Program-made: the position numbers and the translations under genes
Assembly: GCF_016907275.1 (NCBI RefSeq)
Contig: NZ_JAFBBP010000001.1
Coordinates: 1,302,001 to 1,366,000 of the forward strand
From: Micromonospora luteifusca
Lineage (GTDB): Bacteria > Actinomycetota > Actinomycetes > Mycobacteriales > Micromonosporaceae
DNA: 64,000 nucleotides
Direction: 5' to 3'
Part shown: one piece after another, positions 15,190 to 41,548 of the stretch
How the letters are laid out: each line of letters begins with the position of its first letter
Position numbering within the stretch: position 1 is the stretch's first letter
Notes under the pieces: generated by a model
Seen by the model: only the letters and a program-made list of their open reading frames with translations
Told to the model about the DNA's origin: nothing
The model's database searches: none

Positions 15190-15248
15190 CGATTCCGCCT
15201 TTCGTTCGCGACTGCGGGGCTCCGCTGCGCTGCACTCCTCGCGCTCAC
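15186..15248 (-). repeat. Gene-junction mini-ORF repeat, trpE to membrane gene
   Basis: One ~55-bp repeat copy (15197-15251). It reads as a 20-codon ORF beginning [10 protein letters not shown]. Its GTG overlaps the trpE stop as GTGA, and its TGA overlaps the next gene's GTG as GTGA. AAAGG near its end is 8 nt before that GTG. The sequence GTGAGCGCGAGG occurs at both ends, like a target duplication. Other copies lie at 24468-24590, 38135-38194, 38364-38483 and 39091-39159. Confidence 0.8.
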
Positions 15249-24471: not shown

Positions 24472-24590
24472 CGGGCTGGCCTTTCGTTCGCGACTGCGGG
24501 GCTCCGCTGCGCTGCACTCCTCGCACTCACCGGTGCCGGCCTTTCGTTCGCGACTGCGGGGCTCCGCTGCGCTGCACTCCTCGCACTCAC
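24468..24590 (-). repeat. Gene-junction mini-ORF repeat, tandem pair between ABC genes
   Basis: Two copies with 60-bp period, identical over 57 nt (24478-24534 and 24538-24594). Together they form a 40-codon ORF. Its GTG overlaps the upstream ABC stop (GTGA), a second GTG starts the second unit in frame, and its TGA overlaps the next gene's TTG (TTGA). AAAGG ends each unit. Confidence 0.82.
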
Positions 24591-37502: not shown

Positions 37503-38135
37503 TCAATCACCGGTGGGCAGCGTGGCGAGCCAGTTGCGCAGCAGCGCGGCACCGGTGTCGGCGGACTTCTCGGGATGGAACTGCGCCGCCGAGAGCGAAC
37601 CGCGCTCCACCGCGGCGACGAAATCCGTGTCGTGGTGGGCGGTGGTCACCGTGGCACCGGCAGCGGACAGCCCCGCCGGGTCGCCCATCGCGTACGAGTG
37701 GACGAAGTAGAACCGGCTCTGCTCGGACAGCCCGGCGAAGAGCACCGACTCCCGGGGCGCCCGGACCGTGTTCCAGCCCATGTGCGGCAAACGGGTGGCG
37801 GCCAGCCGGGTCACCCCGCCGGGCAACAGCCCGAGCCCCTTGGTCACCACACCGTGCTCGTCACCGTGCTCGAAGAGCACCTGCATGCCCACGCAGATCC
37901 CGAGCACCGGCCGGCCGGCAGCCACCCGCTCGGCGATCACCGGGCCGGCGCCGAGCGCCTCGATCCCGGCCATGCAGGCGGCATACGCGCCCACCCCCGG
38001 CACCACCAGGCCATCGGCGGCAGCCGCGGCCGCCAGGTCGTCGGTCACCCGTACGTCCGCGCCGGCGGCGGCGAGCGCCCGCTCCGCCGAACGCAGGTTT
38101 CCCGAGCCGTAGTCGAGCACCACCACGGCGCTCAT
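37503..38135 (-). CDS. hisH: Imidazole glycerol phosphate synthase, glutaminase subunit
   Basis: 210-aa class I glutamine amidotransferase partner of HisF. Triad: Cys in PVLGICVGMQVLFE, His and Glu in SAAQFHPEKSADTG. Oxyanion strand VVPGVGAYAACM present. ATG at 38135 overlaps the stop of the repeat mini-ORF (TGATG) and has GGAAGG 9 nt upstream. Confidence 0.96.
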   Translation of the reverse strand: MSAVVVLDYGSGNLRSAERALAAAGADVRVTDDLAAAAAADGLVVPGVGAYAACMAGIEALGAGPVIAERVAAGRPVLGICVGMQVLFEHGDEHGVVTKGLGLLPGGVTRLAATRLPHMGWNTVRAPRESVLFAGLSEQSRFYFVHSYAMGDPAGLSAAGATVTTAHHDTDFVAAVERGSLSAAQFHPEKSADTGAALLRNWLATLPTGD

Positions 38136-38194
38136 CAGGCGCCGCCTTCCGTTCGCGACCGCAGGGCTCCGCCGCGCCGCACCCTCGCGCTCAC
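38135..38194 (-). repeat. Gene-junction mini-ORF repeat, small gene to hisH
   Basis: A diverged copy (38144-38195), with indels that change its reading frame relative to the other copies, yet still a 19-codon ORF. Its GTG overlaps the upstream stop (GTGA) and its TGA overlaps the hisH ATG (TGATG). GGAAGG lies 9 nt before hisH. Confidence 0.75.
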
Positions 38195-38364
38195 GCGTTC
38201 TCCCCCGGCAACAGCCAGAGCACTCCGCCGACCGTGGCGAGTACCGCGAGCAGCGCGGTGATGACGATCGCGCCCTTCGGCGCGCCCTGGCGGTACAGCG
38301 ACCAGGCGCCGCCCACCAGCACCCCGGCCAGGATCAGCATCAACGTCGGCAACGCGGCACCCAT
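38191..38364 (-). CDS. 57-aa membrane protein in the his operon
   Basis: Two hydrophobic helices (GAALPTLMLILAGVLVGGAW and AIVITALLAVLATVGGVLWL) joined by a short basic loop; function unknown. The ATG overlaps the stop of the repeat mini-ORF (TAATG) with GGAAGG 8 nt upstream. The frame is open upstream through both repeat copies, so an over-long call of ~100 aa is possible but unlikely. Confidence 0.7.
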   Translation of the reverse strand: MGAALPTLMLILAGVLVGGAWSLYRQGAPKGAIVITALLAVLATVGGVLWLLPGENA

Positions 38365-38483
38365 TAGAGCCACCTTCCATTCGCGACTGCGGGGCTCCGC
38401 TTCGCTGCACTCCTCGCGCTCATCAGAGCGCACCTTCCATTCGCGACTGCGGGGCTCCGCTTCGCTGCACTCCTCGCGCTCAT
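38364..38483 (-). repeat. Gene-junction mini-ORF repeat, tandem pair between hisB and small gene
   Basis: An exact 60-bp tandem duplication (38371-38430, 38431-38490). It forms a 39-codon ORF whose first ATG overlaps the hisB stop (TGATG); a second ATG opens unit two in frame, and its TAA overlaps the next gene's ATG (TAATG). GGAAGG lies 8 nt before that ATG. Confidence 0.82.
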
Positions 38484-39094
38484 CAGAGCGCACCCTTCGT
38501 GCTGGGGATGGCCCCGGCCGCCCGCGGATCGATCGCGGTGGCCTCGCGCAACGCCCTGGAGACGGCCTTGAACTGCGCCTCCACCACGTGGTGTGCGTCC
38601 GGGTGACCGCCCGGCCGGGCCGCCCGCAGCACGTCGACGTGCAGCGTGACCCGGGCCGCCTGACCGAAGGACTCCCAGATGTGCCGGGTCATGCTGGTCG
38701 CGTAGACCGGCCCGATGTAAGGGGCCAGCACCGGCTCGTCGTGCACCACGTACGGCCGACCGGACAGGTCCACCGCCGCCCGGACCAACACCTCGTCCAT
38801 CGGTACGGTCGCCGAACCGTACCGCCGGATGCCGGCCTTGTCGCCCAGCGCCTGGTCGAATGCGGCACCCAGGGCGAGCGCGGTGTCCTCGATGGTGTGG
38901 TGCGCGTCGATCTCCAGGTCACCCACGGTGCGCACGGTCAGGTCGTAGCCGCCGTGCCGGGCGATCTGGTGCAGCATGTGGTCGTAGAAGCCGACGCCGG
39001 TGCTGATCTCGGCGGTGCCGGTGCCGTCGAGGTCGATCTCGACGAGGACCTTGGTCTCCTTGGTGATCCGTTCCACCCGGGCGGTCCGGCTCAT
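38483..39094 (-). CDS. hisB: Imidazoleglycerol-phosphate dehydratase
   Basis: 203-aa manganese enzyme. Two HHxxE motifs, DAHHTIEDTALALG and DAHHVVEAQFKA, bind the metals; GFYDHMLHQIARHG and the C-terminal STKGAL are also typical. The phosphatase domain of enteric HisB is absent, as expected in actinobacteria. ATG overlaps the preceding mini-ORF stop (ATGA). Confidence 0.96.
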   Translation of the reverse strand: MSRTARVERITKETKVLVEIDLDGTGTAEISTGVGFYDHMLHQIARHGGYDLTVRTVGDLEIDAHHTIEDTALALGAAFDQALGDKAGIRRYGSATVPMDEVLVRAAVDLSGRPYVVHDEPVLAPYIGPVYATSMTRHIWESFGQAARVTLHVDVLRAARPGGHPDAHHVVEAQFKAVSRALREATAIDPRAAGAIPSTKGAL

Positions 39095-39158
39095 TGCTGT
39101 GCAACCTTTCGTTCACGACTGCGGGGCTCGCAGGACCGGCGCACTCCTCGCGCTCCCA

Positions 39159-39159
<1 letters not shown>
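39091..39159 (-). repeat. Gene-junction mini-ORF repeat, hisC to hisB
   Basis: Diverged copy (39105-39156) whose centre is replaced but whose ends (GGAGCGCGAGGAGTGC and GAACGAAAGG) are kept. It forms a 22-codon ORF: GTG overlaps the hisC stop (TAGTG) and TGA overlaps the hisB ATG (ATGA). AAAGG is 10 nt before hisB. Confidence 0.78.

Positions 39160-41548
<2,389 letters not shown>

Follow-up and report, generated by a model that had tools for sequence, protein, structure and literature searches.

A short, apparently mobile repeat of Micromonosporaceae whose mini-ORFs probably keep operon genes translationally coupled

Results

Repeat copies between the his genes

The window analysed here is a 64,000-nucleotide stretch of DNA from Micromonospora luteifusca, situated at positions 1302001-1366000 of one 7.16-Mb chromosome. 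The his operon genes hisC and hisB, a gene of 57 amino acids and hisH follow one another on its minus strand, and each of the three junctions between them carries a single copy or two tandem copies of a short repeat with an open frame (Table 1). A preliminary description of this DNA had placed mini-ORFs of 22, 39 and 19 codons at these junctions, each overlapping the stop codon before it and the start codon after it. Both the coordinates and the double overlaps were recovered in this work, and the overlap at either end was also borne out at the two further loci of the window. The tandem copies between hisB and the 57-aa gene lie 60 nt apart. By eye, the product of the 57-aa gene has two hydrophobic stretches; in the his loci that were read, the gene has this same place between hisB and hisH.

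Table 1. Genes, repeat copies and mini-ORFs of the window, with partial transposase matches elsewhere on the chromosome
Feature	Position	Strand	Form	Basis or remark
hisC	39159..40514	-	451 aa from first GTG; stop TAG at 39161-39159	Protein aligns with orthologues; name from neighbourhood and preliminary description
hisC/hisB repeat copy	39105..39157	-	Diverged, GTGAG to GGGAG	Profile match, E 1.7e-14
Mini-ORF 1	39091..39159	-	22 codons, GTG start	TAGTG with hisC TAG; ATGA with hisB ATG
hisB	38483..39094	-	203 aa	
hisB/57-aa gene, tandem copy one	38433..38483	-	CAGCGAAGCGG type	Profile match
hisB/57-aa gene, tandem copy two	38373..38423	-	CAGCGAAGCGG type	Profile match
Mini-ORF 2	38364..38483	-	39 codons, ATG start; both tandem copies in frame	TGATG at 5' end; TAATG at 3' end
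57-aa gene, between hisB and hisH	38191..38364	-	57 aa	Translated; orthologous frames in relatives
57-aa gene/hisH repeat copy	38145..38194	-	Most diverged of the three junctions' copies	Profile match, E 6e-8
Mini-ORF 3	38135..38194	-	19 codons, GTG start	GTGA at 5' end (TGA of 57-aa gene); TGATG at 3' end (hisH)
hisH	37503..38135	-	210 aa	tblastn
Copy outside his operon	15199..15248	-	20-codon mini-ORF	GTGA at either end
Two tandem copies outside his operon	24480..24590	-	40-codon mini-ORF	GTGA entry; TTGA exit
Partial Y1 (IS200/IS605-type) transposase matches	734184-734387, 779672-780009, 6535339-6535428 of chromosome		Frames of 75-125 aa	

The repeat unit and its distribution

The unit runs from RTGAGCGCGAGGAGTG through a middle part, of which there are at least four versions (GAGCCGGGTTTGCG, GAGCTTGCG, CAGCGAAGCGG and one that is longer), to AGCCCCGCAGTCGCGAAC, usually followed by a Shine-Dalgarno-like AAAGG/GGAGG stretch before the next start codon. 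Since the element begins with RTGAGCGCGAGG, the stop codon of the upstream gene and the new start codon both come from its first RTGA. One frame of the element is open, and its length of about 50-60 nt usually sets the second stop codon over the start of the next gene.

A search of the genome with seed patterns gave 148 matches at up to two mismatches, against 73 with a reversed control, and 92 against 9 at up to one mismatch. A profile search with a model built from 58 copies returned at least 91 matches at E<=1e-3 in about 60 places; as it scored 150 of 11,848 first-look candidates, this figure may be a lower bound, and weak copies may be missed. It added two places to the seed hits, both of which were read and left out of the counts. 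Depending on the cut-off, the DNA of this genome holds 60 or 61 arrays. Copies are single or tandem, arrays of two to three near-identical units being common, and the tandem spacings are mostly 59 and 60 nt, also 56, 57 and 62 nt, and 58 or 61 nt in only three cases. Partial copies that start inside the unit were seen at L014 and L029, where the upstream flank is opposite-strand or non-coding; these may be remnants or may reflect another mode of insertion.

The 17-mer GAGCCCCGCAGTCGCGA occurs in all 63 sampled Micromonospora genomes, the present one included, and has a patchy distribution in the rest of the family (47 of 187 other Micromonosporaceae genomes), which brings the family-wide tally to 110 of 250 genomes and 21 of 44 genera. 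It was found in none of 293 genomes of a class sample from outside the genus, and the repeat model R1, used with stricter filters, in none of 55 non-genus genomes of the order. Among the 80 titles listed of at least 120 stretches, the named carriers were Micromonospora, Plantactinospora, Paractinoplanes and one unclassified member of Micromonosporaceae. An Rfam search of the window and five loci left the repeat unmatched, its single hit being a cobalamin riboswitch in L037.

Phase and spacers across the genome

Gene calling relied on a codon model that had been trained on 165 long ORFs from the same DNA, and copies below 20 bits were excluded from the counts of array outcome and phase. The rule of an overlap at both ends, put forward in the preliminary description, holds at all five loci of the window but is not perfect genome-wide, where 43 of the 60 arrays form a full chain, fusions being counted as success; a separate mini-ORF is likewise the form of most copies, while some cases are in-frame fusions. 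Four of the remaining arrays give no relay, one lies in frame inside a gene, seven lack upstream coding sequence, two lack downstream coding sequence and three have another orientation. Both flanks are coding on the strand of the repeat in 48 of the 60 arrays, and nine have no called gene on one side. The stretches from relatives, at least 120 in number, hold 128 arrays (90 chains, 7 without relay, one in frame within a gene, 15 at the edge of a contig and 15 others), counts that are not all independent since all 120 stretches were used and orthologues were kept. The upstream stop codon is the TGA of the element's first RTGA in 37 of 48 assessable arrays here and in 81 of 98 in the relatives' stretches.

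Measured from the RTG of the last copy to the next start codon, 34 of 39 distances in this genome are 2 mod 3 (56, 59, 62 or 65 nt; binomial p 5e-12), the phase that creates the second overlap; four of the other five are 0 mod 3, which gives in-frame fusions, and one is 1 mod 3. The corresponding figures for the relatives' stretches are 77, 16 and 1 of 94. Arrays without a start codon within 30 nt (8 here, 8 in relatives) or without RTG as first codon (6 and 2) were dropped from this count. The commonest length by far is 59 nt (25 of 39). Cores of 40, 43 and 45 nt are paired mostly with linkers of 16, 16 and 14 nt, respectively, and the sum of core and linker is 2 mod 3 in 32 of the 36 well-parsed copies (3 of the 39 were not properly parsed), so that the total phase is kept though the parts differ by non-multiples of three. 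Random phase and copies lying off junctions, the outcomes that the preliminary description had named as contrary to its reading, were looked for across the whole genome and were not found.

Co-directed gene pairs with a spacer of 20-130 nt, taken from the same DNA, served as a control. An overlap chain or a fusion was seen for 31 of 34 spacers with the element versus 15 of 57 plain ones in this genome (Fisher p 9e-10), and for 51 of 57 versus 19 of 122 in the relatives' stretches (Fisher p 5e-22); strict chains numbered 28 of 34 versus 3 of 57, and 49 of 57 versus 9 of 122, respectively. Shuffled spacers succeeded in 54-56% of the element cases and 16-19% of the plain ones, which indicates that composition and entry alone help chaining, but to below the observed level. 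When linkers were lengthened by 1 or 2 nt in a permissive relay test, 36 and 22 of 46 arrays were still connected versus 42 of 46 unaltered ones; this test is only weakly sensitive to phase because in-frame fusion is scored as success, and the phase count is the sharper evidence.

Filled, empty and decayed sites in relatives

Thirty loci each were read out of 41 hisB, 41 rdgB and 40 bioD matches, with three bioF loci lacking a tblastn match. The chain between hisC and hisB is intact at 29 of the 30 loci, and 10 loci have a detectable element. The element of L214 is present with a broken chain, hisC ending in TAG followed by GA, with no overlapping start. In L199, L200 and L202 the element has decayed to a C-terminal tail of hisC that is read through and still ends in ATGA; the junctions of L201 and L213 resemble such tails at scores below the profile threshold. 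A GTGA within the element ends hisC in L190 and L206, and a new ORF runs from there to ATGA. Between hisB and the 57-aa gene the chain is intact at 28 of 30 loci, 11 of the loci having the element, and the failures are L215, solely owing to a mis-picked start, and L205, where the start lies 5 nt after the first base of the stop codon. All 30 loci reach the frame of hisH from the 57-aa gene, under a looser rule that takes any start codon in that frame.

The starts of rdgB, bioD and hisH were picked among nearby in-frame codons with overlap preferred, which inflates the counts for these genes. With this bias, the rph/rdgB overlap is kept at 29 of 30 loci: eight of the nine filled sites are intact, the chain being broken at L240, and an overlap is present at each of the 21 sites where no element was detected, directly at 20 of them and via a 31-nt spacer at L248. 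For bioF/bioD, the overlap is found in 26 of 27 adjacent pairs, the remaining one being a fusion; the overlap is present at all 14 filled sites, where in three cases it takes the form of a C-terminal tail of bioF, and at 12 of the 13 without the element. On the simplest reading, the junctions were overlapping before the element entered them and kept their overlap afterwards. Judged from the sequences compared, the overlaps are held through divergence, tandem duplication, insertions and deletions, and decay.

Several further features were noted at these loci. Between hisB and the 57-aa gene, spacers of 31-97 nt without a detectable repeat (L200, L202, L204, L206, L207, L210, L211 and L213) contain a short ORF that overlaps both neighbours. 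The hisC gene of L214 has an apparent frameshift about 50 codons before its end. At rph/rdgB of L241, the 5' part of the element looks duplicated, giving four successive overlapping stop/start links.

Target sites and candidate mobilisers

Bases ahead of the first RTGA match those ahead of the next start codon more often than in shuffles, mainly at position -1; this level was reached by 8 of 2000 shuffles here (31 pairs) and by none of 2000 in the relatives' stretches (74 pairs). A gapped test for target duplication was not significant here (1239 of 5000 shuffles) and was significant in the relatives' stretches (11 of 5000). L053, L065, L159 and L112 have a target-side match over about ten bases or more, and nothing comparable was seen by eye at rph/rdgB. 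As candidate mobilisers, Y1 transposases gave only partial matches in the genome, four of them to PF01797, in short open frames (Table 1).

A covarying stem

The first two bases of the unit can pair with the two bases after TCGCGA, and changes are found on both sides of this stem: the first pair is G-C, A-T or, once, C-G, and the second is T-A, C-G or, in hisC/hisB orthologues, G-C. Two-sided changes fill 12 cells in alignment A1 and 22 in alignment A2, against shuffled means of 1.5 and 2.9 and at most 4 in slid registers. A1 holds 58 of 69 distinct copies and is the alignment from which the structure itself was derived, A2 holds 83 of 142 found copies, taken from the 120 with the lowest scores so that diverged copies are favoured, and relatedness of the copies can inflate the shuffle test. 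A measure of 'further pair types' was not in excess in A1, where 192 of 500 shuffles reached it, and was reached by 19 of 500 in A2. A first-base A is matched by T in 4 of 5 arrays here, whereas a first-base G never is (0 of 42; p 3e-5), and the counts in the relatives' stretches are 5 of 8 and 1 of 114 (p 2e-6); the second end pair is significant here only (p 0.001, versus 0.10 in relatives). The covarying stem is absent from the predicted best folds of consensus units: for five typed consensus units it comes to about -10 to -14 kcal/mol versus -18 to -22 kcal/mol for the best fold, a difference of about 4-9 kcal/mol from the minimum-free-energy fold. The stem may form in RNA, may form in DNA and serve mobility, or may result from arm conversion by template switching.

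A second repeat type

Another type of repeat (ATGAGCGAGCGNAGCGAGCGAAY...) gave 8 pattern matches at 7 places of this genome (L284-L290). In five cases its mini-ORF has a stop codon overlapping the first codon of a coding ORF (253-465 codons), the distance being 68-80 nt and 2 mod 3, and the two other cases run on into long ORFs; in 6 of the 7 places, L288 being the exception, the RTGA is where a coding ORF stops. In its placement over stop and start codons and in its length phase, this second type agrees with the first. Inspection by eye shows short motifs (RTGAGCG and GCAGCGAAGCGGAGC) in common with some versions of the first repeat, and the two may have a common origin. Two 80-nt copies of this second type (ATGAGCGAGCGTAGCGAGCGAATC...) also lie between the 57-aa gene and hisH of L207, where they make up the series ATGA-ATGA-ATGA.

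Discussion

It is highly probable, in our view, that the repeat is a non-autonomous, apparently mobile element that inserts at the stop/start of coupled genes and is nearly transparent to their coupling, which would involve both a relay of ribosomes and selection. Insertion would take place where the stop and start codons of coupled operon genes overlap (RTGA or TGATG), with the element oriented along transcription; a ribosome that has completed the upstream gene would reinitiate on the mini-ORF, read about 20 codons, stop at the start of the next gene and reinitiate there. Tandem duplication would add links or lengthen the mini-ORF, and copies that break the chain would tend to be purged by selection, so that frame and overlap persist as the sequence drifts. 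Such a relay had been proposed in the preliminary description, and the comparisons of phase, of plain spacers and of filled and empty sites all support it; translation of the mini-ORFs is what we infer from them. In the reporter work described in PMC10666635, termination-reinitiation is all but lost at gaps of about 20 nt, and 15 nt from the end of the upstream gene are enough for it, so that an insert of about 59 nt without such an ORF should uncouple the genes. According to PMC6728339, 13 of 14 overlapping gene pairs tested were strictly coupled.

The overlaps could instead be by-products of insertion alone, if an element of near-fixed length targeted RTGA and remade it at both ends, with no selection for coupling. 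The first RTGA does seem to be borne by the element, as rph/rdgB sites without it mostly read ATGA (19 of 21) while the left junction of filled sites reads GTGA in all nine, and the predominance of the 59-nt length could by itself yield the phase. However, the core and linker lengths co-vary among subtypes in a compensating manner, diverged and decayed copies and even the element-less hisB/57-aa spacers retain their overlaps by different codons and frames, and phase 1 occurs just once in each of the two sets of distances. We therefore consider this alternative unlikely and infer that phase is kept by selection and not by the insertion mechanism alone. It is distinctly improbable that the repeat serves mainly as an RNA or DNA structure, be it a REP-like stem, a site of mRNA processing or protection or a substrate for mobility, with the open frame secondary: the two-sided changes at the end pairs of the stem, in excess of shuffles and slid registers, and the association of a first-base A with T would fit such a role, but the covarying stem is not the minimum-free-energy fold, the six sources searched against Rfam gave no match to the repeat, and structure alone leaves phase and overlap unexplained. 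Amplification by slippage of ordinary short tandem repeats that are alike by chance and not mobile would suit the common arrays of two to three near-identical units, but is refuted by the presence of the same sequence at about 60 places in the genome and by single junctions that are filled or empty across relatives.

The repeat provides a natural experiment on translational coupling: each genome has dozens of such junctions, which related species show filled, in tandem form, decayed or empty. The persistence of the overlaps is comparative evidence for selection on coupling, which is otherwise tested pair by pair with reporters. The repeat is also an annotation hazard, as the elements give rise to short ORFs and C-terminal tails, and N-terminal extensions (VSARSEP..., MSARSAA...) may be called falsely because of them. 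A bolder and quite tentative extension of the relay is that the repeat might be a self-contained mobile translational adaptor, whose stem shuts on the start codon of its own mini-ORF and opens only for the ribosome that ends the upstream gene, so that the insert would be read strictly in proportion to that gene. With at least two repeat types in one niche, 'coupling-transparent' repeats would then be a general class of bacterial mobile DNA, of which MIRUs (mycobacterial interspersed repetitive units) would be the first known case.

Relation to known systems

A literature search of open-licence papers gave no description of such a repeat in Micromonosporaceae, nor does the accessible part of the Actinoplanes genome paper (PMC3364876) contain one. 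The repeat may resemble the ribosome termination structure (RTS) of PMC7518266, an mRNA structure just 3' of a stop codon that affects reinitiation, but the RTS is a general folding feature and no repeat family. The same text says that it is depleted where reinitiation is useful, which would argue against a strong stem at the repeat junctions. The overlaps of -4 and -1 nt are the same as those described for termination-reinitiation at overlapping genes in PMC6728339 and PMC10666635. Unlike at such plain overlaps, the coupling sites here are borne by the repeat and chained across the insert.

REP/BIME elements are small, non-autonomous interspersed repeats with arms capable of pairing, and Y1 transposases are associated with them. 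The present repeat is likewise small, non-autonomous and interspersed, with arms able to pair, but differs in its stop/start overlaps, its orientation with the genes and its open frame, and just partial Y1 transposase matches were found; in contrast to REP/RAYT systems, a stable stem-loop is not its dominant fold.

The closest parallel is with the MIRUs. Both are short interspersed repeats, single or tandem, that lie between co-directed genes and are oriented with them (48 of 60 arrays here), both contain a small ORF that overlaps the stop and start codons of the neighbours, though here not in every copy, and both are inserted at RTGA/start sites that are empty in relatives. On the other hand, the repeat was found only in Micromonosporaceae among the samples, and changes on both sides of its end pairs suggest a stem, though one that is not the best predicted fold, whereas Supply et al. 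reportedly described MIRUs in 1997 as being without dyad symmetry. Its usual distance of 56-62 nt also differs from the 77 and 53 bp at senX3-regX3 given in PMC4213456, a text that confines MIRUs to M. leprae and the M. tuberculosis complex; PMC12548453 places them in many mycobacteria. At the rnc-fpg1 junction, according to PMC2734929, a gap of a few bp in species without the repeat is filled in the M. tuberculosis complex, and the same idea, that coupling is preserved, has already been stated for MIRUs in PMC12548453. We do not class the repeat, which was compared with MIRUs by description, as a MIRU, the lineage being different; it looks like a separate counterpart, in another family, of this nearest known kind, working in a like manner, and its existence suggests that living as MIRUs do is not peculiar to mycobacteria.
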